From NCBI GenBank assembly GCA_036567785.1, contig DATCTV010000034.1, positions 228,468-292,467 of the forward strand: a DNA stretch of 64,000 bases, written 5' to 3'. Shown one piece after another: positions 1 to 15,270 of the stretch. Position 1 is the stretch's first letter; the number at the start of each line of letters is the position of its first letter. The stretch is from Desulfomonilia bacterium. GTDB lineage: Bacteria; Desulfobacterota; Desulfomonilia; UBA1062. The notes under the pieces were generated by a model. It worked only from the letters and a program-made list of their open reading frames with translations. It was not told where the DNA came from and did not search any database. A program made the position numbers and the translations under genes.

Positions 1-326
1 CGGAAGGCACCAGATCGCCGAAGGGAGAGCTGCTCAAGTTCAGATCAGGGGCCTTCAAGATTGCCAGGGCGGCAGGTGTACCGATACAGCCTGTTCTTAT
101 AAAAAACATTCCCCCATTCATGCCCAAAGAAGACAAATGGTATTACCCGCCGTATGAAAAATCCTGCTTTGAAGCCGAGTTCCTTGATCCGATAGCACCC
201 CCCGAAGCAGGAAGCGAAGTACAGGCTGCAAAAGAGCTGGAAATGATGTTCAGGGAACATCTCGGTCTTGCGCCTGATAACAGGCCTGCAAATAAATCAT
301 GCTCAGGAGCCGTATATGACAAATGA
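1..326 (+). CDS. 1-acylglycerol-3-phosphate O-acyltransferase (PlsC family), C-terminal part, 5' truncated by window
   Basis: The reading frame is open from base 3 to the TGA at 324-326, giving about 107 residues. It begins inside the acyltransferase motif E-G-T-R-S, followed by a basic Phe-Lys-Ile-Ala-Arg segment and V-P-I-Q-P-V. These are motifs III and IV of the PlsC/lysophospholipid acyltransferase family, which transfer acyl groups from acyl-ACP or acyl-CoA at the membrane. The catalytic HX4D motif lies outside the window. The stop overlaps the start of the ketosynthase gene, so the two are probably co-transcribed, and an acyltransferase of this type is a common member of aryl-polyene-like clusters. 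The acceptor substrate cannot be told from this fragment. Confidence 0.8.
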   Translation, partial: EGTRSPKGELLKFRSGAFKIARAAGVPIQPVLIKNIPPFMPKEDKWYYPPYEKSCFEAEFLDPIAPPEAGSEVQAAKELEMMFREHLGLAPDNRPANKSCSGAVYDK

Positions 327-1548
327 TGTACGCGTCGTTGTTACCGGCATAGGATTCCGTTCGCCGATAGGCCATACCATGAATGAGCTCAGGACATCGC
401 TTCAGGAAGGCAGGAGCGGGATCAGATATATCCCCGAATGGGAAAAGGTAGGACATATGCGGACCCGCCTTTCAGGTGTATGCGACGGTATCGATGAAAA
501 GATAATCCCGAGGCCGGTAAGAAGGAGCATGGGACGGCTGTCGGTGCTGGCCGCCCTTTCGGTGATGGACGCCGTCAGGGATTCCGGGCTCACGGAAGAT
601 TTCATCAGTTCCGGGAAATGCGGTGTCTCCTACGGTTCGACGGAAGGCAGTTCGCAGGCAATGGAAGATTTCACCAAAGATTATGCCAGAAACAACAGCC
701 TCCTCGGACTCGAATCATCCACATACCTCAAATTCATGAGCCATACATGTGCTGCAAATATTTCCATGATGTTTCACACCAGAGGGCCTTTGATCGCCTC
801 CTGTACGGCATGCGTTTCGGGCTCTCAGGGAATCGGTTTCGGGTATGAAGCAATCAAGGCGGGAAAGGCAACCGTAATGCTATCAGGCGGCGCAGAAGAA
901 ATGCACTTTTACAATGCGGCCATATTCGAGCTTCTCAGGGCGACTTCCGTAAAATACAACGACTGCCCTGATAAAACACCCCGGCCGTTTGATGAGAAAC
1001 GTGACGGGCTGGTGGTCGGGGAAGGTTCCGGCTGCCTCGTGCTTGAGGAATATACGCAGGCAAAAGAACGCGGGGCCAGGATTTATGCCGAAATCGCAGG
1101 GTATGCAACAAATTGCGACGGCGCGCATCTTACCAATCCGAGCGCAGACGGCATGGCAGGCGTTATGATGCTCGCCCTAAAAGATGCCGGTCTCTCCCCT
1201 GATGAAATCGGACATGTCAATGCCCATGCCACAGCCACTGATGTTGGAGATGCAGCCGAGGCTGAAGCAGTGTTCAGGGTGTTCGGAGATAAAACCCCGG
1301 TAAGCGCATTCAAGGGATATATCGGTCACACCCTGGGTGCATGCGGCGCCATCGAATCAATAATTACCATCTGCATGATGAATGAAGGCTTTATGGCTCA
1401 TACAAAAAACCTGGATAAACCGGACCCCGCGTTTCCGAAGCTCAACCACATCATGAAAGAAGCCGTTCATAAATCTTTTGATATCGGCATGAACAACAAT
1501 TTTGCATTCGGCGGCATAAACACCTCTCTTATTTTTAAAAAAATATAA
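316..1548 (+). CDS. beta-ketoacyl-ACP synthase (FabF-like ketosynthase)
   Basis: The 411-residue protein is a complete condensing enzyme for Claisen extension of an ACP-bound acyl chain. The catalytic triad is visible: Cys166 in T-A-C-V-S-G, His304 in N-A-H-A-T-A-T, and His338 in K-G-Y-I-G-H-T-L-G-A, with the usual Lys333. The glycine-rich end (F-A-F-G-G-I-N-T-S-L) is also intact. The start at 316 fits the family N-terminus (V-V-V-T-G-I-G) and overlaps the previous stop by 11 bases; an upstream in-frame ATG at 268 would add residues that do not match the fold. It is more diverged than housekeeping FabF and sits with an acyltransferase and a small membrane protein, which suggests specialised acyl or polyene chain synthesis. 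Confidence 0.88.
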   Translation: MTNDVRVVVTGIGFRSPIGHTMNELRTSLQEGRSGIRYIPEWEKVGHMRTRLSGVCDGIDEKIIPRPVRRSMGRLSVLAALSVMDAVRDSGLTEDFISSGKCGVSYGSTEGSSQAMEDFTKDYARNNSLLGLESSTYLKFMSHTCAANISMMFHTRGPLIASCTACVSGSQGIGFGYEAIKAGKATVMLSGGAEEMHFYNAAIFELLRATSVKYNDCPDKTPRPFDEKRDGLVVGEGSGCLVLEEYTQAKERGARIYAEIAGYATNCDGAHLTNPSADGMAGVMMLALKDAGLSPDEIGHVNAHATATDVGDAAEAEAVFRVFGDKTPVSAFKGYIGHTLGACGAIESIITICMMNEGFMAHTKNLDKPDPAFPKLNHIMKEAVHKSFDIGMNNNFAFGGINTSLIFKKI

Positions 1549-1562
1549 AAATAAGGTTCATT

Positions 1563-1952
1563 ATGCCCATTCTAAACAGGCTGGCTGACAGGATTGCGGC
1601 GACAAAATACGGCCGTAAAGCCCTGAATGAACCTGCCGATCTCGGATATTTCAAACAAAGACCGTCCCTCAGGCTGGTAATTGGACTGCTCCTGCTTGTT
1701 CTCAGCTATATCATATGCTGGCCGGTTATTGCGCTTCTTGCGTTTGCAGCCGCGTACTATCGAAACCCCCTGATAATTGTAATCGGCGGCCCTTTGGCAT
1801 ACGGGCTGTCGTGGGCGGTATTCGGCCTGTCCATGCTGCTTCTGGGTATACACAGTTACTATGGTGCAGAAGTCATAGGCCATTATTTTACAAGACAATT
1901 TTTAGAAAAATATTCCTCAAAAATCCAGGTTAAAGACCCTTATAAAGATTGA
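1563..1952 (+). CDS. small integral membrane protein of unknown function
   Basis: The 129-residue protein has a basic, soluble N-terminus of about 35 residues, then about three hydrophobic segments (roughly 38-57, 58-76 and 80-101) and a polar, Lys-rich tail. I do not recognise a family. It starts 14 bases after the ketosynthase stop, so it is probably translated from the same mRNA. A role in localising the biosynthetic enzymes or handling the lipid product is possible, but this rests on position only. It ends six bases from the 3' end of the convergent glycosidase gene. Confidence 0.65.
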   Translation: MPILNRLADRIAATKYGRKALNEPADLGYFKQRPSLRLVIGLLLLVLSYIICWPVIALLAFAAAYYRNPLIIVIGGPLAYGLSWAVFGLSMLLLGIHSYYGAEVIGHYFTRQFLEKYSSKIQVKDPYKD

Positions 1953-1958
1953 ACGATC

Positions 1959-4778
1959 TCACGGATTATTTTTTTTAGCAGCTGACAGTGACCATTTTCC
2001 GGGTGTTATAATGAACTGCAAATATCCGCTGCCGGCGGTTTTCAATTCTTCAAAAACCTCTCCTGAACTGCCGGTGATTTTTATATCACCTGAAAATTCT
2101 GAGGGAATTCCTGCAACACATTTTGTGCCTTCCGGAGATTTTATATTCATACTGAACGTTTTTTCGTCTTTTTTTATATCGAGTTCTATCGGGCCCTTAA
2201 CAGAAGGCACCGTGCACTTGAGAAAAGCAAGGCCGCCCATTTGCGGCATTACTTCGAATTCGTCATATCCGGGTTTGACCGGGCGGATCCCGGCTGCATA
2301 CATCGATAGAAGCGTCAGCGGCCCCCCGCTCCAGGCATGGTTGTAAGTGCCACCGCCGTATTCAAGACTTCCTATTTCCCAGCCCTCCCAAAGTGTTGAA
2401 TAAGGGCTTTGAACCATTTCGGCATAGCGTTTTTTCATACGGCTCAGGGCACACTCTTCAAAGCCCATTAAAAACAGAGCTTCAAGGACATATTTTTCCA
2501 TATACGGACTTGCATGAAAAGCGGTTGAAAGTATTCTTTTGATATCGGCATAATCTTTTATATCTGCCAGGCCCGCCACCACCGCCAGGGCATTGGCGCG
2601 ATCATCGGTGCCGCGTTTATAGCCCGGAAACCGGTAGGCATTATACCTGGTGTTCCAGAAGTTTTTCCTGAAATTCTCTCTTATAAGCCGCATCTTTTCT
2701 TCGTAATCTTTGGCCTCCTCGGGCCTGTCCGCGACATCGGCCATTGCCCCGAGTCCTTTAAGGGCCAGGTAATACCATTCGGCCTCCAGAAGTCTCACAT
2801 CCGCATTTTCTCCCCAGTCGCCCCAGTCCCATTTTGTCTTGCGGTGACTAATCTTTCCTTCTGAATTTACCTGCCACAGATCAATGTATCTTTTCACTTT
2901 AGGGTAGACCGTCGTTATCGTTTGTTTATCACCTGTATTCAGGTAATAGTTCCAGATGCCGAACCACCCGATACCCGCAAGGCTCTGCAGTGACAGTTCA
3001 ATATTCCAGTTGCCTGACGGGACAGGGGAATAGAGCGAGCCGTCTTTTTTCTGCCATCCGCAAAGTTCATGTATGGCCTTTTTTGCAAGCATATGACTGG
3101 ACGGGTCAAGGGCATAAAATGATTCTCCGATCTCAATGACGGCATCTCCCCACCATTGGGCGCGCTCCCTGTCGGGACAGTCCATATAGTTGTCGCGCAT
3201 TGTCACATAAAGCGTACGGCGCGCCTTTTGCCACAGCTTGTTCAAAAAAGGATCGCTGCATTCAAATTTTCCGGCAAAGTCAGTATCAAATCCGGTTTCA
3301 CGGAATTTGAGAGAAAGAATCCGAATACCTTCGGGAAACGAGTATATAACCTTATGTCCGTTCATCCATGCAGGACATTCAAAGGTCTGTTGACCTGCCC
3401 TTGTAATGTAGCAAGTCCGTATGCCATATTCCCCGCCGCCCTGATAATCATCCGTCCTGATGTCCACAAATAAACCTGCCTGTGCTTCGATTTCAAAATA
3501 TGGCTGCACCTGTGCGTTATACGGAAGCAGGCATTCAATACTTTTGCCGTCGGAAACAACCGGAAATATTCGTGAGTTCACATATTCTTTCAATCCATAA
3601 TCTTTCCACATGGGGATCGGCCTGGGTATAAGGTTGTTCCATGGTGATACGGGAGGCCTTCCTTCAAGTCTGACTGGTTTGAACAATTCGCCGCTGATAT
3701 CTCCGGAAGTCCATCCAGGAATGTCCTTGTTTGCATCAAATAAGACATTAGATTCCGCCAGGCGGAAGTTGGGTTTAGGACCACCTGTTGTCTGAAATGC
3801 AGGATGAATTGCGGCAGTCCATGACGAATCCGAGATAAGACAGATTTCCTGGGAAATGGCATTGAATATGAAACCGGCCTGACCGCTATTCTTGTGAGAA
3901 AAAGAATTCCTGCCGAAATGCCAGACCAGAACCGCTATCAGGTTTCTCCCTTTTTTCAAAAAGGGGGCGATATCGATTGTATCATAATAAGTATCATACG
4001 GGTTGGGGCCGCGCTTTAGTCCTCCCTCTGCGACAACCTTATCACCGTTGACCCATAACCAGTATTTGCTGTCCGCTGCTATATCGGCATATAAATGCCC
4101 GGGGATGTTTTCCATATCGAATGTTTTTCTATAGCATATCCAGATATTCGATTCTGACATATCCGCCTTTGTGTCAGGGAGAATCCATTGGGCATTCCAT
4201 CCGGTATGGGGTTTCTTATCTGGCACATGCCACCTGCCGGCCTCTTCCCTTTTTGCAGAGTTTACCTGAAAAATTGAATAGATGGCCGCAGCAAGCAGTA
4301 TGAGTGATAATACTAAAGCGGAAGTCCTGTTATAAATAACCGAAACCGGATCAAGATCTGTAATTGCAATCCCTGACAACACGACTGCAATGCAGCAGAT
4401 GAAAAAAACCTCAAGTACCCGGTAAAACTTCGCAGCTGTAATAATGCTGAAAAGGGAAAGCCTGATCTGATTAACAAGGATTATAAAAATGGAGAAGAAA
4501 ATAGTCAGCACAAACATGGCTGATATTGCAATAGGGCCGTTTGTTTTTTTCATGTTCAGATGCAAAAAAAATGTTGTAAAAAAAAACACGGAGAGAAACA
4601 GGATAAGCAAAAAGACAGTCAATACCCATTTAATCTTAAGCCCGGTTGCCTTGCATATGAATTTGTTGATTTCCTCCCACAGGGGCCTGATTACCAAGAG
4701 CAAGACATCAAAGAAAGCCAGAAAGAACCCTGTAAGGCCCAGAATAAAAGATTGCATATTGCTTTGAATGATTCCCAT
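1959..4778 (-). CDS. membrane-anchored GH78-like glycosidase (alpha-L-rhamnosidase family)
   Basis: The 939-residue protein has two parts. Residues 1 to about 172 contain five hydrophobic helices (roughly 9-32, 48-72, 82-102, 118-140, 153-170). The rest resembles bacterial alpha-L-rhamnosidases: a jelly-roll N-domain with W-x-x-Y-R-K-T-F (about 185-345), an (alpha/alpha)6 barrel (about 480-830) and a C-terminal beta domain. The barrel has M-D-C-P-D-R-E-R-A-Q-W-W-G-D-A, which matches the GH78 signature region with acidic catalytic residues. Secreted GH78 enzymes normally have a signal peptide, so the polytopic anchor is unusual. An odd helix number with the N-terminus inside would place the catalytic part in the periplasm. 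The sugar specificity cannot be predicted. It lies inside the acyl-chain locus, in antisense orientation to the ketosynthase arm. Confidence 0.75.
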   Translation of the reverse strand: MGIIQSNMQSFILGLTGFFLAFFDVLLLVIRPLWEEINKFICKATGLKIKWVLTVFLLILFLSVFFFTTFFLHLNMKKTNGPIAISAMFVLTIFFSIFIILVNQIRLSLFSIITAAKFYRVLEVFFICCIAVVLSGIAITDLDPVSVIYNRTSALVLSLILLAAAIYSIFQVNSAKREEAGRWHVPDKKPHTGWNAQWILPDTKADMSESNIWICYRKTFDMENIPGHLYADIAADSKYWLWVNGDKVVAEGGLKRGPNPYDTYYDTIDIAPFLKKGRNLIAVLVWHFGRNSFSHKNSGQAGFIFNAISQEICLISDSSWTAAIHPAFQTTGGPKPNFRLAESNVLFDANKDIPGWTSGDISGELFKPVRLEGRPPVSPWNNLIPRPIPMWKDYGLKEYVNSRIFPVVSDGKSIECLLPYNAQVQPYFEIEAQAGLFVDIRTDDYQGGGEYGIRTCYITRAGQQTFECPAWMNGHKVIYSFPEGIRILSLKFRETGFDTDFAGKFECSDPFLNKLWQKARRTLYVTMRDNYMDCPDRERAQWWGDAVIEIGESFYALDPSSHMLAKKAIHELCGWQKKDGSLYSPVPSGNWNIELSLQSLAGIGWFGIWNYYLNTGDKQTITTVYPKVKRYIDLWQVNSEGKISHRKTKWDWGDWGENADVRLLEAEWYYLALKGLGAMADVADRPEEAKDYEEKMRLIRENFRKNFWNTRYNAYRFPGYKRGTDDRANALAVVAGLADIKDYADIKRILSTAFHASPYMEKYVLEALFLMGFEECALSRMKKRYAEMVQSPYSTLWEGWEIGSLEYGGGTYNHAWSGGPLTLLSMYAAGIRPVKPGYDEFEVMPQMGGLAFLKCTVPSVKGPIELDIKKDEKTFSMNIKSPEGTKCVAGIPSEFSGDIKITGSSGEVFEELKTAGSGYLQFIITPGKWSLSAAKKNNP

Positions 4779-4881
4779 ATCCTTTATAAGGATAATTTAT
4801 CCGGTGATGTTTTCAAAGGGAAATTCCATCAAATAACTTTGCGCTATTAACCGGAATCATTTCAAAATTTTGTTTCCGGGG

Positions 4882-4909
4882 TTGATTGAAAAAAATAATC
4901 GATTAAAAT
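4882..4909 (+). promoter_or_regulatory. candidate sigma-70 promoter for the 33-residue ORF
   Basis: A -35 box TTGATT (4882-4887) and a -10 box TAAAAT (4904-4909) are separated by 16 bases in an AT-rich stretch. Transcription would begin near 4916, about 38 bases before the small ORF. The spacing and the match to consensus are reasonable, but this has not been tested. Confidence 0.45.
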
Positions 4910-4953
4910 ATGCATATATCGAGTACCAATGAAAAATGGCAAAGGAGGAAATT

Positions 4954-5055
4954 ATGTCCAAGAGTCAGGATATCAAAAAAGACGTGAAAAAGAAGCCCAC
5001 CAAATCCTTGAAAGAAAAGAGGCTTGAAAAGGCGGCGAAAAAGGCTGGCAAATAG
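4954..5055 (+). CDS. small Lys-rich protein, 33 residues
   Basis: An ATG at 4954 follows an almost perfect ribosome-binding site, AAAGGAGG, and opens 33 codons ending in TAG. About 40% of the residues are Lys or Arg (pattern K-K-D-V-K-K-K-P and K-E-K-R-L-E-K-A-A-K-K). The composition points to a disordered or helical nucleic-acid-, membrane- or ACP-binding peptide. No family is recognised with certainty. It has its own candidate promoter upstream and a strong hairpin terminator downstream, so it forms a self-contained transcription unit between the glycosidase and ligase genes. Confidence 0.65.
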   Translation: MSKSQDIKKDVKKKPTKSLKEKRLEKAAKKAGK

Positions 5056-5075
5056 CAAAACCTGAGATTGGAGCC

Positions 5076-5114
5076 ATATTATATCCGGGAATGCATGCCC
5101 GGTATAATATTTTA
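5076..5114 (+). terminator. intrinsic terminator, probably bidirectional
   Basis: A long inverted repeat (ATATTATAT-CCGGG at 5076-5089, CCCGG-TATAATAT at 5098-5110, with an 8-base loop) is followed by TTTAT on the + strand. It lies 20 bases after the small ORF and touches the 3' end of the convergent ligase gene, so it can serve both. Confidence 0.7.
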
Positions 5115-6479
5115 TCCCCGCAGCAATCCAAGCGCCGCCTGCCTGTCTTTTTTCCCGGCAGGTGTTACGGGGATGGAGTCTACTTTTAATATATGACGAG
5201 GCATTTCAATCGGGCTCAGTATCTTCCTGAAAAGTTTTTTCAGTTCTTTTATATCCAGGCTCGATTCAACAATGGCGGCAACCTCGTTATCACGCCCCTG
5301 TTTTGCGTTTACCTGAAATATGAAAATATCCTTTACGGCTTTAATTGACCTGAGTTTCTGTTCCACCGCATCGAGTTCTACACGGTTTCCTCCCACCTTG
5401 ACAACACTGTCCACCCTGCCCAGGAGTTCGAAGCCTTCTTCCGAAAGAATCGCCCTGTCACCGGTCAAAAAATAGTCTTCGTCGTCAAGAGGAAGGCCTG
5501 GGGATATGAATGGGGACTTGACCAGAAGCCTCTCCTTTTCGATCTTCCATGACACGGGAGGAAAGGCCTTGAACCCTGTTTCGTCACGCATGCGGCTTCT
5601 GTGGGCAATTCCTCCCGTTTCGGTTGACCCGTACACCTCCTCGACCGGCGTACCGGTTGCCCTTGAAAATGCCAGACTGTGGGCCTTTTCCAGAAAACCT
5701 CCTGACGAAAAGGCAAGTTTGATACAATCTGGCACTGATCCTCCAACGGCAAGGGCTTTATAATGAAGTGGCGCCCCGATATAAACAGTAGCCCTGCTTG
5801 ATGATACCCTCTCGATAATCTCAGCCGGGAACACCGGGGAACCCTTAATGATACGGGCCCGGGCGACAAACGGAAGCAGGACTGAAAAAAGCAGCCCGTA
5901 GATATGCCTTGGAGACACAGAGGCCAGAATGATATCATCGGGTGTAATCTTAAAATACTCCCTTAGAAAAACAGTTTCTGCAAACAGGTTTAAAGGTGTC
6001 TTGGGCCATATTATCGGCCTTCCGGTGGAGCCTCCAGAATAAAGCCACAAAAAGGGGGCATCGAAAGCCTTAGTTATGCTCAGGCTTTTTGAAAAATGTT
6101 CCTTTTCCAAGGGGATTATCTGCAGCAGGCTGTCAGGGAGCGCCTGCTTTTTTTCTGATATCACGGTTCCGGTTTTTTTCGCCATGCAGGCATCAATAAT
6201 GACCTTCTCCGTCAGCACATGAGGAAATATCAGCTCAGGCCCTCCTGACAAAGAGGCCAGGATGGAGGCCATTATAAAACTTCTGTCTTCGCTGCAAACA
6301 CAGACCGAGCTTTCATCAGGAGCTTTCCTTTTAACCGTCTCTCTTATGATTGCGGTCTTTTCAAGCAGTCCGGGGCCTTTTTCTCCGTCCGGGTCATGTT
6401 CTAAATCAGCACCGGCAGCAAGATCATCAATAAGGCATGCCAGCTCTTTTTCCATATCTTTTTTTATATTTTTCTTCAT
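5112..6479 (-). CDS. AMP-binding acyl/aryl adenylating ligase
   Basis: The 455-residue member of the ANL superfamily activates a carboxylic acid as acyl-AMP and passes it to CoA or an ACP. Visible motifs are Y-S-G-G-S-T-G-R-P (P-loop, near residue 150), E-V-Y-G-S-T-E-T-G-G (A5), Y-F-L-T-G-D-R (A7), G-R-V-D-S-V-V-K-V-G-G-N-R-V-E (A8) and P-A-G-K-K-D-R (A10 Lys). It is shorter than typical acyl-CoA synthetases, like the starter-unit ligases of aryl polyene clusters. The start at 6479 overlaps the radical SAM stop as ATGA; an upstream GTG at 6497 is possible. It is the last gene of the four-gene operon. The substrate is unknown; loading of the neighbouring ACP is a reasonable inference. Confidence 0.82.
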   Translation of the reverse strand: MKKNIKKDMEKELACLIDDLAAGADLEHDPDGEKGPGLLEKTAIIRETVKRKAPDESSVCVCSEDRSFIMASILASLSGGPELIFPHVLTEKVIIDACMAKKTGTVISEKKQALPDSLLQIIPLEKEHFSKSLSITKAFDAPFLWLYSGGSTGRPIIWPKTPLNLFAETVFLREYFKITPDDIILASVSPRHIYGLLFSVLLPFVARARIIKGSPVFPAEIIERVSSSRATVYIGAPLHYKALAVGGSVPDCIKLAFSSGGFLEKAHSLAFSRATGTPVEEVYGSTETGGIAHRSRMRDETGFKAFPPVSWKIEKERLLVKSPFISPGLPLDDEDYFLTGDRAILSEEGFELLGRVDSVVKVGGNRVELDAVEQKLRSIKAVKDIFIFQVNAKQGRDNEVAAIVESSLDIKELKKLFRKILSPIEMPRHILKVDSIPVTPAGKKDRQAALGLLRG

Positions 6480-7825
6480 CCGATCAGTTTTTCCCACAAA
6501 GGTCCGACCCTTCCCCTTGAATAGAGCCTTGCCATGATCCTGTTCATTTCGCTGCCGCCCGAACCTATGACCCAGTTCCTTCTTCCGGCGGCCTTACTGA
6601 CAATCATTTCCTCAATCTCTTCTGGTGATATCCCGTCGGAAAGGTAAAAAACAGGTTTGAGCAGATCTTCATCCGGTGAAATTCTTCCTTCTGCGAGCGC
6701 CATATTATAAAGCCCGGTACCCGGATATATCCTTATCCCGCAGAAAAAGAAAAATGCAGCAGATTCCAACTTTTCCGCATTTTCAAGCGTTTCCTTTATG
6801 CTCTCAATGTTTTCACCAGGGCCTCCCAGCAGGAAATAGTGACAGACATGAAGGCCTGCCCTTATGGCTGATTCGTGAGCGCTCATTACATCACCGACAC
6901 TGAATGGTTTCCGGTATGTCAGGAGCATCTTCCCGGACAGCGATTCGGTGCCGAATTCGCAATGAGTGAGCCCTGATAATTTGAGTTTCTGATAAAGCCC
7001 TTCCTGGTCTTTGAGCGGAGAGAAAAAACCTCCCCACGGGATATCAAGACCTGCCTTTTCAAACTCTTCGGCGACCTTCAGACAATGTTCATAATCCGAA
7101 TTGAAAACGCTGTCTGCAATATAGATATATTTTGCGCCCTTTTCTTTGAGGCTGACAGCCGTTTTTGCGCAAAGAGCAGGGTCGGCCCTGCGGATAGCCG
7201 CACCTTCAATAACAGGGTACGTGCAATATATGCAGTTAAACGGGCATCCGCGTTTTGTCTGCATGTTGAGCATGCCGGAGTTTTGAACGTAAAATTCGTT
7301 TGATGAGGCATTTTCAGGCAATTCCCTTCTGATGTCTCCTTCCCAGGGCGCAGGCCGTACAAAACCCTTTTGTCTGCAAACAACACCGGGAATGTCTTCT
7401 GGAGCGCTGCCTTTTTTAAGGGCATCCAGAAGAAGATTCAGGCGCTCGCCCTCTCCGGCAATACCATAGTCTGCCCCCAGTTCCCGGAAAAGGCTTTCCG
7501 GAAACAGGGAAAAACCAGCCCCGCCAAGTATCAGGGGAGCGCAAGTAGAATCACGTATGATTCTGGCAATCTCCCTGTATTCTTCTATATAGCTTATGGA
7601 ATCCGTCGCCTCGCTGTTGTCTATGTTGCGAATTGAAAGGCCAACGCAATCAGGCTGGAACTCTTTTATCTCAAGAGGAATTGCTGAAAGGGCGTCCTTG
7701 TCGATAAGATCAAGCACTCTGACGGCATGTCCCGGCTTTAGCGCGCCTGCAAGATAATCAAGTCCTATCGGATATACCGGAAAAGGTGCGCGTACTTTAT
7801 TTGCTGAAATCAGAAGAATTTTCAT
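6476..7825 (-). CDS. B12-binding-domain radical SAM enzyme (second of two)
   Basis: The 449-residue protein has an N-terminal cobalamin-binding-type Rossmann domain (about 1-150, with L-I-L-G-G-A-G-F-S-L and a G-E-G-E-R-L turn) and a radical SAM domain with the [4Fe-4S] motif C-x3-C-x2-C at Cys194, Cys198 and Cys201. The downstream G-G-P-G-E loop near 340 fits SAM binding. Cobalamin radical SAM enzymes often methylate unactivated carbons or make C-C bonds, and relatives lie in lipid-type clusters with FabF-like ketosynthases. It starts nine bases after the ketosynthase fusion gene and overlaps the ligase gene by four bases, so it is part of a tight operon. The reaction cannot be predicted from sequence. 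Confidence 0.85.
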   Translation of the reverse strand: MKILLISANKVRAPFPVYPIGLDYLAGALKPGHAVRVLDLIDKDALSAIPLEIKEFQPDCVGLSIRNIDNSEATDSISYIEEYREIARIIRDSTCAPLILGGAGFSLFPESLFRELGADYGIAGEGERLNLLLDALKKGSAPEDIPGVVCRQKGFVRPAPWEGDIRRELPENASSNEFYVQNSGMLNMQTKRGCPFNCIYCTYPVIEGAAIRRADPALCAKTAVSLKEKGAKYIYIADSVFNSDYEHCLKVAEEFEKAGLDIPWGGFFSPLKDQEGLYQKLKLSGLTHCEFGTESLSGKMLLTYRKPFSVGDVMSAHESAIRAGLHVCHYFLLGGPGENIESIKETLENAEKLESAAFFFFCGIRIYPGTGLYNMALAEGRISPDEDLLKPVFYLSDGISPEEIEEMIVSKAAGRRNWVIGSGGSEMNRIMARLYSRGRVGPLWEKLIG

Positions 7826-7834
7826 TTCAAGTTA

Positions 7835-9985
7835 TTAAGGATTTATTTCTATGGCGCTCAATACACTGCCAAGTCCTAGTAGAAGAATTCCTCTACTGGC
7901 AAGTTCCGATTGGCCGCCGGAAACAATAAAGGGCAGCGTCCCTTTCTCCAGACAGGCTAAAGCATATGCGGCAGCTACTGCGCTAGATGTTGCAAACTGG
8001 CCGAAGAACTTTCTGTAATCGAATACTGCTCCTTGAAATGTCGTGCCTGTTATAACTTCTTCAATCTGAGATTCTGCATTTTGTTTTTCATTGGATGGAA
8101 TTCCAGCAAAGATCGCGGCAAAGCGTTCGTTGATCCCTATGCTCTTGAGCTTTTCAATAAGGCCCTTCAAATGTTCCCTGGAATTTCTTTCATAAAAAAG
8201 CAGGGTTAATGAAGGACCGGCCAGAGCCGCTCCGCCGCTTACCAGAAAAGCCGCTCCGCCGTCCGCGTTGTCGAGTGAAATACCGGAGGAGGCATCGAGA
8301 AGGGGGGTCATCTCTTCGTGGAATTCATCGGCACCGATTAGCAGGGACTGCCTTCCCGTTTCATTTAGCAACTGCGCCATAAAGAGTGCCTGCTCGAAAC
8401 TTGAATCTCCTGATGTGGCTGTGACATTGGCGCCTTTTGCACTGAAAAACAGGGCTGCCTGGCCTGCAGGGGCATTGTGGACCGAGCCCACAAAATCCGT
8501 CGGGCTTCCGTATTTGCCGCCTGTCTCGAAAATTTTACTTAAAAAATCACTTGTTTCGCTGAGTGCTCCCCATCCGGTTCCGAAAAAAACAGCCTCCGGT
8601 TTTTCAGAAGAACCGCCGGCCTTATATGCGGAATCACACAGTGCCAGGACTATCTGAGAGAGCCTGCCCAGCCTTCTGACAAGACGCGGGGGTAGATCTT
8701 TTGCAATAGAGTCAATATCCAGCCTGCCAGCACAGGGTTTCCCTTCCTCCAATGCTGTCATGATCTCTGCTGTATGGCCTGCGCCTGTTATCATTGAAAA
8801 ACCTTTAACTTTAAGGCTTCTGATTTTTTTCTCCCGGATCATACCTGTTTCAGCCGGTTTTGAAATTATGAGCGATGCATTGTTGCCGCCAAAGCCGAAT
8901 GAATTCGAGAGTACCGTATCAACACGGGTGTCCAACGTGTCAGAGACAGGAACAATTCCCAGTGTTTCATCTATCCGGTCAAGGCCCGTATTTGGCGGGA
9001 TGAAATCATGCTTTACTGCAAGGCAGGCATAGCCCGCTTCGATAGCTCCGGCCGCTGCCAGGGGATGACCTGCAAGGCCTTTTGTAGAAGAAAGCAGGGG
9101 CGGTGTTTCACCGAACACATTCAATACAGCCTTTGCTTCAGCTGCGTCGTTATCCGGTGTGCCGGTGCCGTGAAGGTTTATATAACTAACTTCCTCCGGT
9201 TTAACGCCCGCATCTCTAAGGCAGGCGTTCATTGCCGCGATTGCGCCCTCACCTTCGGGATGCGGTTTTGTTGCATGATAGGCGTCGCAGCTGAGCCCGC
9301 CTCCCTTGAGTTCGGCAATTGCATTTGCAGGGGATATGTCTGCCGCTTCAAGGAGCAGCATGCCCGCACCTTCGCCCACAGTCATTCCGAGTCTGTTCTT
9401 ATCCAGCGGCCTGGCCCCTGTTGGGTCGATAAGCTGCAACGTATAAAACCCGTAGCAGGTTAGCCTGCACAGGGCATCCACTCCGCCTGCGAGTATCTTC
9501 CTTGCAATGCCAGCACGTATCATTTCCAGGGCTGCTTTGAGGGCCAGGGCGCCGCTTGAACAGGCAGTGGAAACAGTGAACGCAGGACCGTTGCAGCCGA
9601 GCTCATGTGCAAGATATTCAGCAACCGTTCCTGTGCCATGATATTTATATGCTGAAGGGTTTCTAATCTTATCTTTCAGAAGTTCTTCAGACAGAGGCAT
9701 TCCGCCGGTTGTGCTGCCTATTACCACCGCATCGGGCGGACCAGAATTTTTCATGGCCTCTCTTGCGGCCATTAAGGCCAGCGTATGCGTTCTGGGAAGC
9801 CCCGGTGATTCATTGACGGGAAATGCAATTTCTCCTGCCGGTGGCGCATTTTCGGCAGCCTCGAAATTAAAAAGGGTAAGCTTTTTTATGAACGTTTTAT
9901 TGGCGCTCAGCGAAATAAGGTGTTCATCGGCATTCGAGCCAGCAGGCGAAATAAGACCTAAACCGGTTACAAATGCCCTCGGCAT
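7835..9985 (-). CDS. ketosynthase fused to a chain-length-factor-like ketosynthase domain
   Basis: The 716-residue protein contains two thiolase-fold halves. The first (about 1-378) is an active ketosynthase: Cys142 in S-T-A-C-S-S-G, His272 in L-H-G-T-G-T, His307 in T-K-G-L-A-G-H-P-L-A-A-A-G. The second (about 390-716) has the fold signatures (S-V-H-N-A-P-A-G near 501-508), but where the catalytic Cys should be it reads T-A-T-S-G-D-S-S-F-E-Q-A (521-532). It therefore looks like the Cys-less partner (chain length factor/ApeC-like). In aryl polyene and type II PKS systems these partners are normally separate proteins forming a heterodimer. The start at 9985 has a GGAG site and lies two bases after the radical SAM stop; an upstream ATG at 10120 lies inside that gene and is rejected. 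Confidence 0.85.
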   Translation of the reverse strand: MPRAFVTGLGLISPAGSNADEHLISLSANKTFIKKLTLFNFEAAENAPPAGEIAFPVNESPGLPRTHTLALMAAREAMKNSGPPDAVVIGSTTGGMPLSEELLKDKIRNPSAYKYHGTGTVAEYLAHELGCNGPAFTVSTACSSGALALKAALEMIRAGIARKILAGGVDALCRLTCYGFYTLQLIDPTGARPLDKNRLGMTVGEGAGMLLLEAADISPANAIAELKGGGLSCDAYHATKPHPEGEGAIAAMNACLRDAGVKPEEVSYINLHGTGTPDNDAAEAKAVLNVFGETPPLLSSTKGLAGHPLAAAGAIEAGYACLAVKHDFIPPNTGLDRIDETLGIVPVSDTLDTRVDTVLSNSFGFGGNNASLIISKPAETGMIREKKIRSLKVKGFSMITGAGHTAEIMTALEEGKPCAGRLDIDSIAKDLPPRLVRRLGRLSQIVLALCDSAYKAGGSSEKPEAVFFGTGWGALSETSDFLSKIFETGGKYGSPTDFVGSVHNAPAGQAALFFSAKGANVTATSGDSSFEQALFMAQLLNETGRQSLLIGADEFHEEMTPLLDASSGISLDNADGGAAFLVSGGAALAGPSLTLLFYERNSREHLKGLIEKLKSIGINERFAAIFAGIPSNEKQNAESQIEEVITGTTFQGAVFDYRKFFGQFATSSAVAAAYALACLEKGTLPFIVSGGQSELASRGILLLGLGSVLSAIEINP

Positions 9986-9987
9986 GC

Positions 9988-11232
9988 TCAATCTCCAGAG
10001 ACAGATTTTTTTTCGGGATTTATGCTCATTCGTTCCTTCCTGCGCTTTTCCCTGAGAAGATTTGCTATGAGCCTTGTCATTTTTACGCTTTGCGGCTGCT
10101 CGCGGTAAAAGGAATCCCATGCATAATCATAGAGTTCCTGGAGTTTTTCAGGGCTCATCTGAAGGGGCTTGAATACAACGTTTCCGGCATTATATCTGGC
10201 CCAGTTCGTATCGATTATACGGCCCTGAGAACTAAGCTCATCCCAGACCTGGGTTTTCGGGAAGGGCGTCAGCACAGTGAATTCGGCAAGGTCGAGATCT
10301 ATTTCCAGAAGGAAATCCACAAAGCGCTTGAGAAAATCTTCGGTATGATCATCCATGCCCAGAAGGATTGTGCCTTCAACCCCTATGCCGTGATCGTGGT
10401 AAAGTTTGATCCTGTCCTTTATCTTATCTGATATTGTGTATACGGCATGATAGACATACCAGCAGCCCGCATCTTTGGCCAGTTTGAGGATTTCCGGCTC
10501 AGCCGAAACCGGATGCGCCACCCAGTCCTTGCCCATGCCTTTCATTGCCGTGAATAGTTCTTTCTGCCAGGACACACTCTGCTCAAGAGAGTTGTCCACA
10601 ATAAAAAGCCTGTCCGAGGCTGCTTCGATATCCTTAAGGACGTGATCTATCGGCCTGGTGCGATGTATGCGCCCGCCCAGGTACGGTACACAGCACGGGT
10701 AGCAGTTGAACCGGCACCCTCTCGATGTCTGGACCAGATCGACAAGTTCCCAGCCCTTGTGGGTATAGTGTTTTTTCTTGTCATAGAGGTCGCGCCTGGG
10801 GTTGGGGATATTATTGATATCAGGAAAGTCTTTCATTATGTAAGAGGGTTTGAGGCCTCCTTCCTGAAAGTCGAAGAGCATCTGTTCTATCAGACCCTCG
10901 CCCTCACCGACCACGATTGAATCCGCATGAAGGGCCGCCTCTTCCGGACAGAGCGCCACATGAAGCCCTCCCATGACAACCTTTTTACCTCTTTTCCTGA
11001 ATTCAGCCGAAAGTTCATAGGCCCTGGGCGCCTGACAGGTAAGCATGCAGCCTATCCCGACCAGGTCGCAATCCCTGTCCATATCTATATTTTCAACATT
11101 TTCATCTGTGACAAAAACATTTATCCCATCCGGGACGGAAGCAGCCGCAGTGATGACGCCCAGGGGCGGCAGGTTGAATTCGGTCTGATATTTAAGCTTC
11201 GGCCATCTCGGATATATTATATGGAATTTCAA
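9988..11232 (-). CDS. B12-binding-domain radical SAM enzyme (first of two)
   Basis: The protein has 414 residues from the TTG at 11232, which follows GGAGG with a seven-base spacer; the TTG and ATG further upstream (11250, 11247) would put that GGAGG inside the coding sequence. An N-terminal cobalamin-binding-type domain (about 1-130, V-V-M-G-G-L-H-V and V-V-G-E-G-E-G) precedes the radical SAM core, with C-x3-C-x2-C at Cys173, Cys177 and Cys180 plus an extra Cys181. The C-terminal 70 residues are basic. It is the first gene of the operon reading left. It is clearly distinct from the second radical SAM protein, so the two are probably not redundant. The substrate is unknown; an ACP-bound or finished lipid chain is plausible given the neighbours. 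Confidence 0.85.
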   Translation of the reverse strand: MKFHIIYPRWPKLKYQTEFNLPPLGVITAAASVPDGINVFVTDENVENIDMDRDCDLVGIGCMLTCQAPRAYELSAEFRKRGKKVVMGGLHVALCPEEAALHADSIVVGEGEGLIEQMLFDFQEGGLKPSYIMKDFPDINNIPNPRRDLYDKKKHYTHKGWELVDLVQTSRGCRFNCYPCCVPYLGGRIHRTRPIDHVLKDIEAASDRLFIVDNSLEQSVSWQKELFTAMKGMGKDWVAHPVSAEPEILKLAKDAGCWYVYHAVYTISDKIKDRIKLYHDHGIGVEGTILLGMDDHTEDFLKRFVDFLLEIDLDLAEFTVLTPFPKTQVWDELSSQGRIIDTNWARYNAGNVVFKPLQMSPEKLQELYDYAWDSFYREQPQSVKMTRLIANLLREKRRKERMSINPEKKSVSGD

Positions 11233-11252
11233 ATGGTTGCCCTCCATCAAAA

Positions 11253-11294
11253 ACTATAACGGTTGACTGAAAACCGGTTTTCAATTTATATATT
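11253..11294. promoter_or_regulatory. divergent promoter region with a 16-bp perfect palindrome
   Basis: The palindrome TGAAAACC-GGTTTTCA occupies 11268-11283, between the radical SAM operon and the ACP gene. On the + strand a -35 box TTGACT (11263-11268) is followed after 20 bases by TATATT (11289-11294). On the - strand TTGAAA (11284-11279) is followed after 20 bases by TATAGT (11258-11253). The palindrome therefore lies in the long spacer of both candidate promoters, as with operators of MerR-type activators, but any dimeric regulator could bind. No regulator gene is seen nearby. Confidence 0.5.
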
Positions 11295-11346
11295 AAGCCT
11301 TGCTGGTAGTAAAGCAGATTACAATACATTTGACAGGCGGGTGTTG

Positions 11347-11604
11347 ATGAACAATCTGATGGAAGAGCTCAAGCTTAAAGTTCTGGAAAGGCTTAATATC
11401 AAAGACATAACTCCGGAAGAAATCAACGCAGAAACCCCAATGATCGGAGAAGGGCTCGGGATCGATTCAATCGACATACTTGAGCTTGTGATAATGATAG
11501 AAGAAGATTACGGCATCAAGATCGACAACAAGGAACTCGGGGCCAAGGTGTTCAGAACATTCGGAACAATGGTCGAATATATTTCAGCCAACAGGAAAAA
11601 ATAG
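11347..11604 (+). CDS. acyl carrier protein
   Basis: The 85-residue acidic, all-helical protein has the phosphopantetheine attachment motif G-I-D-S-I-D-I-L-E-L, with Ser41 as the modified residue. Length and motif fit a discrete type II acyl carrier protein. The start at 11347 follows GGCGGG; an in-frame ATG 12 bases later is possible, and the longer frame from 11263 runs through the promoter. It is transcribed away from the radical SAM/ketosynthase/ligase operon and is the obvious carrier for chains made by those enzymes. It differs from housekeeping AcpP, which usually sits beside fabF/fabG. Confidence 0.88.
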   Translation: MNNLMEELKLKVLERLNIKDITPEEINAETPMIGEGLGIDSIDILELVIMIEEDYGIKIDNKELGAKVFRTFGTMVEYISANRKK

Positions 11605-11675: not shown

Positions 11676-12488
11676 TTAATCACTTGAGATTGAATTAAGG
11701 ACATCTTTGAATATCGCCGCAATTTTTGGTCCGGCCTCTTCCGCCATCGAGATTATATAATCAAGGGACGCCCCTTTATAGTCATCCGGGTTATTGTTGT
11801 TCGTTACGGCCGAAATCCCCAGGACATCCATCCCGCAATGAACGGCCTCTATGACTTCCATAACGGTTGACATGCCGACAGCATCCGCGCCAAGCCTCTG
11901 TATCATGCGTGTCTCGGCGGCTGTTTCCATTGAAGGGCCCAGAAGCTGAATGTAAACTCCTTCATGCAGCTTTATTCCCAGCCTGTTCGCCGATATCCTT
12001 GCCCGGTTCATAAGCTGAGGAGCATACGGCCTGTCCATCTCGGGAAACCGCGGGCCCAGCTCGTCATTGTTGGGACCAACAAGCGGATTTCTGCCTGTAA
12101 AATTTATATGATCCCTTATCATCATGACAGAACCCGGTGTAAGATCGGGCCTTAACCCGCCCGCCGCATTTGAAATGAAAAGTCTCTTTACGCCCATGAG
12201 TTTGAAAACTCGGACAGGAAAGGTTACTTCAACCGGGGTATAACCTTCAAAAAGATGGAATCTCCCGCTCATCGCGATGACCGGCACATCGCCGAGCCTG
12301 CCGAATATCATCCTGCCTGAATGATGCGGGGCGGTTGATCTGGGAAATCCCGGAATATCCCCGTATGGATAGACCTTTTCAATTGCAATGGCTTCTTCCA
12401 TGATCCCGAGTCCTGTTCCGAGAATAATCGCTGTATCGGGTTTTGAAGCATGCGCCAGAAAGAAGGCGGCCTTTTTTTCAATTTCCAT
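11676..12488 (-). CDS. purine nucleoside phosphorylase (PNP-I family, trimeric type)
   Basis: The 270-residue enzyme cleaves purine nucleosides with phosphate to give base and ribose 1-phosphate. Visible motifs are I-L-G-T-G-L-G (phosphate loop), H-H-S-G-R (near 55), G-R-F-H-L-F-E-G-Y (near 85), I-S-N-A-A-G-G-L and G-M-S-T-V-M-E-V (Met/Glu region). An Asn-rich T-N-N-N-N near the base-binding position favours 6-oxopurines over methylthioadenosine, whose phosphorylases carry Asp there. It ends the polyamine operon, and its start overlaps the Trm112-like gene; the GAGGA site favours 12488 over 12506. Salvage of purine from spermidine synthase by-products is an inference from context. Confidence 0.85.
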   Translation of the reverse strand: MEIEKKAAFFLAHASKPDTAIILGTGLGIMEEAIAIEKVYPYGDIPGFPRSTAPHHSGRMIFGRLGDVPVIAMSGRFHLFEGYTPVEVTFPVRVFKLMGVKRLFISNAAGGLRPDLTPGSVMMIRDHINFTGRNPLVGPNNDELGPRFPEMDRPYAPQLMNRARISANRLGIKLHEGVYIQLLGPSMETAAETRMIQRLGADAVGMSTVMEVIEAVHCGMDVLGISAVTNNNNPDDYKGASLDYIISMAEEAGPKIAAIFKDVLNSISSD

Positions 12489-12669
12489 TCGCCGGGTTCC
12501 TCGCAAGGTCTATCGCCTCGTCTATGAGCATGATAGGGATTTCATCTTCTATTTTGTATTTGAGCATGCAGGCATTGCAGATGAGTCCGGATTGATCGTT
12601 TTCAAGAACCAGTTTCCCTTTGCATTTCGGACATGCAAGGATGTCAAGCAACTCCTTTTCCACAGGCAT
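12478..12669 (-). CDS. Trm112-like zinc-ribbon protein (YcaR/UPF0434 type)
   Basis: The 63-residue protein has two cysteine pairs, C-P-K-C and C-N-A-C, typical of a zinc ribbon, and the family ending I-P-I-M-L-I-D-E-A. Trm112 activates several SAM-dependent methyltransferases in eukaryotes and archaea; bacterial YcaR-type proteins are less well understood. A clear AGGAGG-like site precedes the start. It sits between agmatinase and the nucleoside phosphorylase within the polyamine operon. Confidence 0.8.
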   Translation of the reverse strand: MPVEKELLDILACPKCKGKLVLENDQSGLICNACMLKYKIEDEIPIMLIDEAIDLARNPANGN

Positions 12670-12679
12670 GATTTACCTC

Positions 12680-13492
12680 CTAAACCTTTCTTCCGATTGC
12701 TATCAGGCATTCTCTTACCAGTTTTGCAGCCACAACGGAAGAGGTTCCGGTAAGATCGCACATCGGGCAAAGTTCCACCATGTCGATAGCGGCAATATTC
12801 AAAGAGTTTATCAATTTAAGAAGTATTCCGGAAAGCTCATTAAAGGTTATTCCGCCGGGTTCAGGAGTGCCTGTTCCGGGAAAGATGGAAGGATCCAGTA
12901 TATCAAGATCACAGGTCAAATAGATCGGGCTATTATGAGCCCATTTTATGATTTCCTCAGGGGTTGAGGATAATTTTGCTGCAAGTTCAGCCTCGGATCG
13001 GTCTGACGACCTGACGCCTATTTGTTTTATGCGATCAAAGCCTACTGTTTCCGAAATGCGCCTTATTACCGTGGCATGCGAAAACCTGGAGCCAAGGTAT
13101 TCCTCCCTTAAATCCGCATGTGCATCGAGATGAACAAGCCTGATGTCACGATAATGTCTTTCAACCGCTTTAAAAGTACCGAGGGTTACCAGATGCTCTC
13201 CTCCCGTGAGAAAAGGGATTGCGCCGGATGACAGGATGTTGGAGCTTTTTTCTTCAATCATAAGAAGGGCTTGAGCGGGATCTCCGAAAGGCAGTTCCAA
13301 ATCTCCGGCATCGATAAAGGAAATGTCTTGAAGGTCCATTTTCTGAACCGGCGAATATGTCTCCAGTCCGTGAGAGGCCTCCCTTATCGCCTGAGGCCCG
13401 AATCTGGAACCTGGTCTGAAACTAGAGGTCGAATCAAAAGGCGCACCGAAAAGACATATCGCTCCTTTTTCCTTCGACGCAATGAATCTCAT
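12680..13492 (-). CDS. speB: agmatinase (ureohydrolase family)
   Basis: The 270-residue enzyme converts agmatine to putrescine and urea with a Mn2+ pair. Metal ligands are visible: G-G-E-H, D-A-H-A-D and D-L-D-I-L-D-P, in the order and spacing of the family. Agmatinase is favoured over arginase because the operon also encodes a pyruvoyl arginine decarboxylase and spermidine synthase. The start codon overlaps the spermidine synthase stop (TAATG), so translation is coupled. The protein is slightly shorter than E. coli SpeB, as is common in anaerobes and archaea. Confidence 0.88.
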   Translation of the reverse strand: MRFIASKEKGAICLFGAPFDSTSSFRPGSRFGPQAIREASHGLETYSPVQKMDLQDISFIDAGDLELPFGDPAQALLMIEEKSSNILSSGAIPFLTGGEHLVTLGTFKAVERHYRDIRLVHLDAHADLREEYLGSRFSHATVIRRISETVGFDRIKQIGVRSSDRSEAELAAKLSSTPEEIIKWAHNSPIYLTCDLDILDPSIFPGTGTPEPGGITFNELSGILLKLINSLNIAAIDMVELCPMCDLTGTSSVVAAKLVRECLIAIGRKV

Positions 13493-14334
13493 TAAAGGGC
13501 CTTTTTTACATAATTAGGCAGTGCGAACGCAGCCCTGTGCATTTCAGAATTGTAGTACATGCAGTTTTCAGCAACTGTTTCAGCCTTTTTTTCATCGAAA
13601 ACCAGAGGATTGCCAGCATCCTTGAATCCCAGAGCAAAAGACCAGAGTCCGGAAGGGTAGCACGGTATCGGGCAAAGATAGAGGTATCCATTTCCGAAAG
13701 CTTTCCTGATATTCCCCATGATACCCGCAACATCACCCATTCGCCATGCGGGTGATTCTGTCTGTGCTCCCATAGTTCCGCCTTTCTTCAAGGCATTACG
13801 GACATTTTTGTAAAATCCGTGAGTAAATAATCCTGTTGCAGGGCCTACAGGATCGGTGGAATCGATAAGGACACAGTCGAATTCATTGGCATGCGCCTTG
13901 ACATATTCTATGCCGTCTCCGATGAAAATCTCCACCCGGCTGTCATTCAGAGATGAGGACAATGTCGGGAAATAATCCTTTGCTGCCTTTATTACCATCT
14001 CGTCAATCTCGCACAATACGATATGTTTGACTTCTTCATGTTTTAAAACTTCCCTTACCGAGCCTCCGTCGCCGCCACCGATAATAAGGACCGATTCGGG
14101 ATTTCCAGCACACATCATAGGGACATGAACAAGCATCTCGTGGTAATAAAATTCATCCTTTTCCGTCAGCATCACAAGGTCATCAAGAAGCAGGACATTC
14201 CCGAAAAAGGGGTTGTTTAAAACCTTGACTTCCTGAAACCGGCTTTTCCCTTCAAAGAGCACATCGAAGACCCTGAAACTTGCAGCACCGACCGTTCCCT
14301 TGTATTCCTCAATGAACCAGCTGTCTAAAATCAT
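13492..14334 (-). CDS. speE: spermidine synthase (polyamine aminopropyltransferase)
   Basis: The 280-residue cytosolic enzyme transfers an aminopropyl group from decarboxylated SAM to putrescine. The N-terminal W-F-x-E and F-Q-E-V segments, the G-G-G-D-G-G nucleotide loop (about 86-91) and the D-S-T-D-P-V-G-P active-site loop are present. It lies six bases after pdaD and overlaps speB, in the middle of the polyamine operon. No unusual insertions are seen. Confidence 0.93.
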   Translation of the reverse strand: MILDSWFIEEYKGTVGAASFRVFDVLFEGKSRFQEVKVLNNPFFGNVLLLDDLVMLTEKDEFYYHEMLVHVPMMCAGNPESVLIIGGGDGGSVREVLKHEEVKHIVLCEIDEMVIKAAKDYFPTLSSSLNDSRVEIFIGDGIEYVKAHANEFDCVLIDSTDPVGPATGLFTHGFYKNVRNALKKGGTMGAQTESPAWRMGDVAGIMGNIRKAFGNGYLYLCPIPCYPSGLWSFALGFKDAGNPLVFDEKKAETVAENCMYYNSEMHRAAFALPNYVKKAL

Positions 14335-14340
14335 GGCCTG

Positions 14341-14808: not shown

Positions 14809-14809
14809 C

Positions 14810-15214: not shown

Positions 15215-15270
15215 TTTCCGCCCTCCCGATATACCGGATTTTTTTGCCTTTTTTTCATTACACATCTCCT

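Follow-up and report, generated by a model that had tools for sequence, protein, structure and literature searches.

A predicted aryl-polyene-type pathway, split between two loci and including cobalamin-binding radical SAM enzymes and a fatty-acid kinase fusion, in a Desulfomonilia genome

We analysed a 64,000-nucleotide stretch of DNA from a Desulfomonilia bacterium (hereafter the window; G000:C34:228468-292467 of a genome of 3.96 Mb in 64 contigs), which opens with a cluster of ketosynthase (KS), ligase, acyl carrier protein (ACP) and cobalamin (B12)-binding radical S-adenosylmethionine (SAM) enzyme genes (Table 1). As read from the sequence, the cluster belongs to a nearly complete pathway of the aryl polyene (APE) type that is split between two loci, and the window holds its left-cut first half. 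The gene types are evident from family matches; our account of what is made, in which sequence, and of what the B12 enzymes do is a proposal. Specifically, in these presumably anaerobic bacteria the pathway probably makes a lyase-primed aryl-polyene acid that is modified by B12 radical SAM enzymes and joined to a membrane lipid. Family searches recovered every component listed in a preliminary description of this DNA, namely an acyltransferase, a KS, a fusion of a KS and a chain-length factor (KS-CLF), a ligase, an ACP and two B12 radical SAM genes, and they supported its view of an aryl-polyene-like set accompanied by such enzymes. The description had held that clusters of this kind do not normally include B12 radical SAM enzymes, which is correct for the sole APE cluster compared, that of Escherichia coli CFT073, but not for the group of loci examined here.

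By sequence, the ketosynthases are of aryl-polyene type. In a tree of 64 rows, the first KS of the window, KS1, grouped with E. coli ApeR (support 100/100), the N-terminal half of the fusion with ApeO (99/97), and the genome's own FabF with E. coli FabF (98/93). The first two groupings recurred in a second tree of 46 rows, built without 16 C-terminal halves, ApeC and one other long row: support was 100/100 for KS1 with ApeR and 99/96 for the N half with ApeO, itself a long branch in this tree, and each grouping was present in 100% of 200 bootstrap trees. A housekeeping FabF or FabB identity of KS1 and of the fusion's KS half, the outcome against which the preliminary description had proposed a KS phylogeny, is ruled out by both trees, in which the two fall outside FabF/FabB. 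The best PDB chains for KS1 were 7f27 (394 bits), which we take to be ApeR of Acinetobacter baumannii, and 4ewg (381 bits), leading the next chain (253 bits) by over 120 bits. The 4ewg protein has been termed an ApeR homologue (PMC8358021). Ketosynthase matches in the whole genome were the FabF at C34:366451, KS1, both halves of the fusion, and two short, weak matches on other contigs.

Cys142, His272 and His307 of the fusion were invariant in 37 of 37 aligned fusions (the window's and 36 of the 47 listed). In the column of the catalytic cysteine, all 16 N halves had Cys and none of the 16 C halves did (Asp in 14, Asn or His in the rest); ApeC has Arg. The AlphaFold2 model of the fusion (predicted local distance difference test score, pLDDT, 94.2) matched, over its whole length, chain 6riw of PfaC best (TM 0.82 by query length), with FabF chains next; ApeO (6qsp) was not among the 50 matches listed. 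PfaC is presumably the KS-CLF of a polyunsaturated fatty acid (PUFA) synthase. Thus, the KS-CLF fusion as such is already known.

The cluster does not end at the window's edge. As the preliminary description had supposed, its left part lies outside, and it extends to about C34:222860. The order on the + strand is PaaK-like ligase, aromatic ammonia-lyase, thioesterase and FakA-FakB fusion, followed by the acyltransferase that the window cuts. Searches of the genome for short-chain dehydrogenases (28 found) and FabA/FabZ-like proteins (one match) led to the second locus, C34:134485-144139 (L156), on the same contig, with a distance of about 79 kb from its end rightward to the first cluster and 84 kb to the window. 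Its + strand carries an ACP, ApeI-like and ApeP-like dehydratases, PlsY and a small gene with no Pfam match; the - strand carries a lipoprotein-like gene, LolA, a ketoreductase, a polysaccharide deacetylase, a lipid A-type acyltransferase, an MMPL protein and a family 2 glycosyltransferase. The LolA, exporter, acyltransferase and glycosyltransferase families (PF03548, PF03176, PF03279, PF00535) were above their cut-offs. The ketoreductase scored 212 bits to ApeQ, with FlxB as its best model. The dehydratases scored 22 bits to ApeI and 38 bits to ApeP, and the first exceeds the FabA gathering score. Of the genes that the preliminary description had proposed to look for leftward, the thioesterase is in the left flank and the ketoreductase, dehydratases and exporter are in the second locus. 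A pathway lacking a reductase or dehydratase was accordingly rejected. The MMPL exporter (L156:15314-18421; G000:C34:140313-143420), of 1036 residues, has a C-terminal methyltransferase domain (residues 855-1011). The argument that rSAM-A (the first B12 radical SAM enzyme) replaces ApeB because no methyltransferase is left was rejected on account of this domain.

Over the two loci, matches were obtained to E. coli ApeD, E, F, H, I, K, L, M, O, P, Q and R, to ApeC weakly, and to ApeJ by two separate genes. Relative to the CFT073 system and its published gene roles (PMC8253772), the two share ApeR/ApeO-type ketosynthases, a putative chain-length factor, two ACPs, an ApeH-like ligase, ApeI/ApeP-like dehydratases, an ApeQ-like ketoreductase, a thioesterase, an acyltransferase, LolA, MMPL and a glycosyltransferase. 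In contrast to E. coli, KS and CLF form one protein here and the exporter bears a methyltransferase domain; counterparts of ApeA, ApeB and ApeG were not seen. The genes added here are the ammonia-lyase, the PaaK-like ligase, the FakA-FakB fusion, PlsY, the polysaccharide deacetylase and the two B12 radical SAM enzymes. The lipoprotein-like gene next to LolA occupies the place of ApeN in E. coli; a DUF3261/ApeN label was discarded as it had neither a Pfam match nor a significant match to ApeN.

The lyase and the kinase fusion suggest how the chain might be started and delivered. The lyase retains the methylidene-imidazolone (MIO) triad Ala-Ser-Gly (ASGDL) and the NQD signature of the phenylalanine/tyrosine ammonia-lyase type (NQDKVS), both kept in the window genome's protein and in all nine locus orthologues examined; NQED marks histidine lyases. 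It aligns without gaps around the signature to 2o6y, which we take to be the tyrosine lyase of Rhodobacter sphaeroides, with Tyr-His where 2o6y has His-Leu. It scored 420 bits of 539 against the hutH model. FlxA of flexirubin synthesis, a proven tyrosine lyase, also has histidine-lyase-like residues at this first motif (PMC3992019), so the Tyr-His motif does not decide the substrate. Tyrosine or phenylalanine is the predicted substrate, and the residues do not choose between them. In the kinase fusion, DegV occupies the place of the C-terminal part of FakA, and the D-x-D motif of FakA is kept in 21 of 21 proteins: the one encoded here and all 20 locus orthologues have D-x-D-T-G. The only Dak2 match and the only PlsY match in this genome (97% complete) are in these two loci.

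Of the two radical SAM enzymes, rSAM-A passed TIGR04072 ('rSAM_ladder_B12') at 391.2 bits against a curated cut-off of 360, in line with the ladderane parallel of the preliminary description. Its AlphaFold2 model (pLDDT 93.2) was closest to TsrM, a tryptophan C2-methyltransferase (6wtf; E 1.4e-30, TM 0.89 by query length), then to MgmA and AprD4; TsrM was also its best sequence match (204 bits by profile). We placed TsrM positions on rSAM-A by counting along the profile alignment, and evaluated them in 62 rows (the window's protein, 52 of 82 listed orthologues and nine more distant proteins). Arg69 of TsrM corresponds to Arg66, which is Arg in 62 of 62 rows. Unlike TsrM, rSAM-A has small residues in every row at the position of Glu273, Val240 in the window's protein (Ala 28, Val 20, Thr 6, Ser 3, Ile 3, Leu 2; Glu 0 of 62). 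In TsrM, Arg69 blocks the lower face of the cobalamin, and Glu273 is a ligand of the unique iron that SAM otherwise uses; a Glu near this place is common among radical SAM enzymes (PMC8992657; PMC13331322). Thus, rSAM-A would have a cobalamin site like that of TsrM together with an iron accessible to SAM, the glutamate by which TsrM keeps SAM away being absent. This suggests that rSAM-A is a radical enzyme, perhaps a methylase, although AprD4 and OxsB have folds related to that of rSAM-A and catalyse other chemistry. The second enzyme, rSAM-B, was less well placed: PF04055 scored 27.1 bits in one search and 29.7 for the whole frame (cut-off 29.5), and it reached no named family (best NCBIfam model, 66 bits of 251; best PDB match, AprD4 at 28 bits).

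We evaluated conservation in relatives found by a pattern scan of genome contigs with the rSAM-A alignment, keeping the best 80 loci, many of them cut by contig ends. In these loci, rSAM-A was 46-53% identical to the window's protein, and the genomes were labelled Syntrophaceae, Smithella, Desulfobulbaceae, Desulfobacterales, Spirochaetes, Myxococcales and others. Both genes were seen in 46 loci, and in 41 of them the KS-CLF lay no more than 2 kb upstream of rSAM-A in the same orientation. This recurrence rules out a chance adjacency, and the conserved gene order sustains the preliminary description, which had made the pairing of radical SAM and KS genes in relatives its test. Neighbour classes, counted by phmmer at E 1e-4 with weak matches included, were KS-CLF in 49 loci, ACP in 57, ApeI/P-like dehydratase in 64, the rSAM-B class in 28, a second KS pair in 45, FakA-FakB in nine and the lyase in two. 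Restricting the count to the 30 loci flanked by 8 kb or more on each side gave 23, 27, 27, 18, 24, six and one, respectively, so that seven of these had no KS-CLF. The KS-CLF frame was at least 690 residues long in 42 of 49 cases; one Syntrophaceae genome (L135) seems to have KS and CLF unfused, near the lyase. An APE-type export and tailoring set accompanies these ketosynthases in several relatives.

The kinase and the lyase often lie elsewhere in the genome, apart from the rSAM-A locus, and were therefore counted genome-wide in 48 rSAM-A genomes (from 50 of the 80 loci, L074 and L078 aside). FakA-FakB was matched in 45, nearly full length in 41 and partial or in pieces in G063, G086, G090 and G101; five matches had one in-frame stop. 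A lyase orthologue of 53-61% identity was present in 20 genomes (one with an in-frame stop), ten had only weaker matches (28-45%), and 18 had none at E 1e-40. In all 20, the kinase gene was downstream of the lyase on the same strand, 37-597 bases away; in 17 the gap exceeded 400 bases, enough space for a thioesterase. L126 has the order of our cluster: lyase, thioesterase, kinase, acyltransferase, KS1, membrane protein. L078, from the cultured Desulfobulbus rhabdoformis DSM 8777, carries much of the gene set, but no lyase was seen in its 21 kb. The phylum is taken to be Desulfobacterota, as the phylum genomes G331, G389 and G360 have rSAM-A at the contig positions seen in G064, G072 and G073, the sources of L038 (Syntrophaceae), L048 (Smithella) and L050 (Desulfobulbus). 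In a sample of 395 genomes of the phylum, 83 matched rSAM-A at E 1e-80, 23 of them at 46% identity or more (our genome included) and 60 at 34-41%, and 29 matched FakA-FakB at E 1e-80, a few partially. The kinase fusion was matched in 23 of 23 genomes with a close rSAM-A versus six of the other 372 (Fisher p 4e-32, a value overstated by kinship).

Many relatives (among them L054:12976-20787, with counterparts in L078, L089, L122 and L138) carry a second module of two FabF-like ketosynthases, two further radical SAM genes, a thioesterase and a fusion of a dehydratase and a phosphopantetheinyl transferase; it may make a second chain. In a Spirochaetes relative, a fusion of polysaccharide deacetylase and methyltransferase domains adjoins rSAM-A (L054:11329-12801); the deacetylase of the second locus in our genome is unfused.

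Based on these gene types, the pathway could run as follows. The ammonia-lyase would deaminate tyrosine or phenylalanine to a cinnamate, which ACL2, the PaaK-like ACL1 or both might load on an ACP, by analogy with ApeH and FlxY. KS1 and the KS-CLF would elongate it with malonyl units, and the ketoreductase and two dehydratases of the second locus would leave one double bond per round. The aryl group or chain would then be modified by rSAM-A, and perhaps rSAM-B, with B12 and SAM, most likely by C-methylation, as the TsrM-like fold suggests. The families of the remaining enzymes are consistent with release of the polyene acid by the thioesterase, formation of an acyl phosphate by the FakA-FakB fusion, and attachment to a glycerolipid by PlsY or the lysophospholipid acyltransferase. 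As in APE systems, the MMPL, LolA and glycosyltransferase set may mature the lipid and move it to the outer membrane. The preliminary description had left the chain's structure open. The product is indeed a predicted one, but the aryl-polyene-type ketosynthases narrow the type of chain. Of the modifications it had suggested, methylation is in keeping with rSAM-A, and no result speaks for cyclisation or cross-linking.

Several results weigh against this proposal. The C half of the fusion joined ApeC at 100/99, but as a long branch and with a weak match of 18 bits to ApeC, and PDB scores of the fusion did not separate ApeO from FabF (9s5h, 206 bits; 1j3n, a FabF, 201; 6qsp, the ApeO, 198). Unlike the flexirubin initiation enzymes that they resemble, the lyase (BagA/FevV 433 bits of 1000, FlxA 329 of 700), ligase and ketoreductase are all below curated cut-offs. 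The ketoreductase passed a FabG model (315 bits; cut-off 273) and missed FlxB (317; cut-off 340), so that scores alone do not mark it as a polyene-type enzyme. The kinase fusion is far below the FakA/FakB1 cut-offs (91 bits against 975 for the FakA equivalog), and the dehydratases fall just below Pfam gathering scores (ApeI 27.1 against 28.5, ApeP 26.0 against 27.0). ApeN was not matched: the gene in its place reached an hhalign probability of 5.4% using a 39-sequence profile. The genes are not gathered in one place in the manner of an APE cluster, and with about 79 kb of the contig between the two loci, their joint action is presumed. Six phylum genomes have the kinase fusion and no close rSAM-A (G050, G170, G217, G379, G432, G442), the genome's only PlsY may be its housekeeping enzyme, and with 28 of the 48 rSAM-A genomes lacking a close lyase orthologue, this lyase is not a general source of aryl starters.

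This last count would also suit an anaerobic PUFA or ladderane-precursor pathway, in which the KS and B12 radical SAM enzymes would both make an ordinary fatty chain and desaturate or cyclise it, the lyase having some other role. In Kuenenia, Desulfotalea, Geobacter and Pelobacter, Rattray et al. (2009) described similar loci, where genes for SAM radical enzymes and a phenylacetyl-CoA ligase accompany FabF paralogues and phytoene-desaturase-like genes; they proposed anaerobic PUFA synthesis for these loci and reported polyunsaturated hydrocarbons and no ladderanes in Desulfotalea (PMC2649909). Together with the TIGR04072 match of rSAM-A and the PfaC-like fold of the whole fusion, these data lend the fatty-chain pathway some weight. 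We nevertheless consider it unlikely: KS1 and the KS half group with ApeR and ApeO while the genome's FabF lies elsewhere, the APE-type export and tailoring set occurs in several relatives and in the second locus here, and the lyase stands in the same run as KS1 here and in L126.

An aryl polyene could also end on a resorcinol or similar head, as a flexirubin-like ester, rather than on a glycerolipid. The lyase, the PaaK-family ligase (FlxY 95 bits of 520) and the ketoreductase resemble FlxA, FlxY and FlxB of flexirubin initiation (PMC3992019). However, KS1 reached 18 bits with the DarB model (cut-off 550; no genome search for DarA/DarB was made), and FakA-FakB and PlsY point to a glycerolipid, so we regard such an ester as very improbable. 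Only slightly less improbable is that FakA-FakB and PlsY help to make the ordinary lipids of the membrane, leaving the ApeD-like acyltransferase alone to attach the polyene, as proposed for E. coli. That enzyme adjoins KS1, and the genome's only PlsY match is the copy in the second locus. An ordinary role does not fit the distribution of the kinase fusion, present in all 23 phylum genomes with a close rSAM-A and unmatched in 366 of the other 372, nor its position downstream of the lyase in 20 of 20 genomes.

Loci similar to the present one were thus described in 2009 as ladderane-like, and the aryl-polyene assignment is the new part. With the Kuenenia and Desulfotalea clusters, likened here by their published description, our cluster shares a B12 radical SAM gene (TIGR04072 by name) beside FabF-like genes and an ACP, and a PaaK-type ligase; some of our relatives also share a phytoene-desaturase-like gene and further radical SAM genes (PMC2649909). 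By comparison, the ketosynthase list of the window genome holds no second KS pair like that of the relatives' second module, and no phytoene-desaturase-like gene was seen in its two loci. Surveys with antiSMASH report 'ladderane' clusters in Desulfobacterota and other phyla without known ladderanes and leave their function open (PMC9902471; similarly PMC11968836). Judging from the shared family name and phyla, those outside anammox bacteria may be relatives of these loci, for which a concrete candidate product follows from the KS phylogeny, the run of lyase and kinase genes and the export set of APE type. Among the papers listed by a literature search, which left most subscription papers outside, none connected loci of the TIGR04072 family with aryl polyenes or a fatty-acid kinase. 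More tentatively, and with considerable doubt, the ladderane-like loci of Desulfobacterota and of Spirochaetes- and Myxococcales-labelled genomes might make a new lipid class, in which aryl-polyene chains are modified by a cobalamin radical SAM enzyme on the ACP of the KS-CLF, activated by the kinase and passed to glycerol as acyl phosphates. If so, anammox ladderane synthesis would be a branch of aryl-polyene biochemistry.

Within the window, the genes form two facing runs (acyltransferase, KS1 and membrane protein on the + strand; rSAM-B, KS-CLF, rSAM-A and ACL2 on the - strand), with the ACP then on the + strand. In the - strand run, neighbouring genes are two or nine bases apart or, in one case, overlap. 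The complete acyltransferase gene is G000:C34:227981-228793, starting 487 bases left of the window.

Table 1. Genes of the first cluster. Positions are those of the window, or of the contig where preceded by C34.
Feature	Position	Strand	Basis
PaaK-like ligase (ACL1)	C34:222860-224269	+	BagE/FevW 150 bits, FlxY 95 bits of 520, all below cut-off
Aromatic ammonia-lyase	C34:224278-225837	+	PF00221, 515 bits
4HBT thioesterase	left of window, between lyase and FakA-FakB fusion	+	family match
FakA-FakB (fatty-acid kinase) fusion	C34:226251-227978	+	Dak2, FakA-middle and DegV domains (PF02734, PF21645, PF02645 over cut-offs)
ApeD-like lysophospholipid-type acyltransferase, C-terminal part	3-326 (feature listed 1..326)	+	PF01553, 83 bits; ApeD match, 53 bits
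KS1, ApeR-type ketosynthase	316-1548	+	361 bits to E. coli ApeR; PDB matches; tree
Membrane protein of 129 residues	1563-1952	+	homologue next to KS1, same gene order, in L126
Alpha-L-rhamnosidase-like protein, 939 residues	1959-4778	-	between cluster halves; seemingly with N-terminal membrane segments
ACL2, AMP-forming ligase, ApeH-like	5112-6497 (start codon uncertain)	-	PF00501; 85 bits to E. coli ApeH
rSAM-A, B12-binding radical SAM enzyme, TIGR04072 (rSAM_ladder_B12)	6476-7825	-	PF02310 and PF04055; 391 bits
KS-CLF fusion: ApeO-like ketosynthase and putative ApeC-like chain-length factor	7835-9985	-	tree, active-site residues, model
rSAM-B, second B12-binding radical SAM enzyme	9988-11247	-	PF02310 above cut-off; CxxxCxxC present
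Acyl carrier protein, ApeE-like	11347-11604	+	PF00550; 55 bits to E. coli ApeE

The membrane protein had no match in Pfam or NCBIfam. The rhamnosidase-like gene had no homologue in the relatives in one neighbourhood comparison and was left out of the queries of another. Base composition gave no sign of recent transfer (G+C 48.0% in 1-11604, 47.9% in the left flank and 45.1% in the rest of the window, or 39.9-49.1% by 8-kb block), a result tempered by the same-family genomes, of which 11 are listed with no rSAM-A match and the best of 23 scored 340 bits, under the TIGR04072 cut-off. Between the rhamnosidase-like gene and the ligase there is a tiny lysine-rich frame (4954-5055, + strand; 33 codons and a stop) with a good ribosome-binding sequence. 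From 11676 rightward the genes look like other pathways, those in 11676-15807 resembling polyamine metabolism (nucleoside phosphorylase, agmatinase and spermidine synthase, read by eye from the reading frames).

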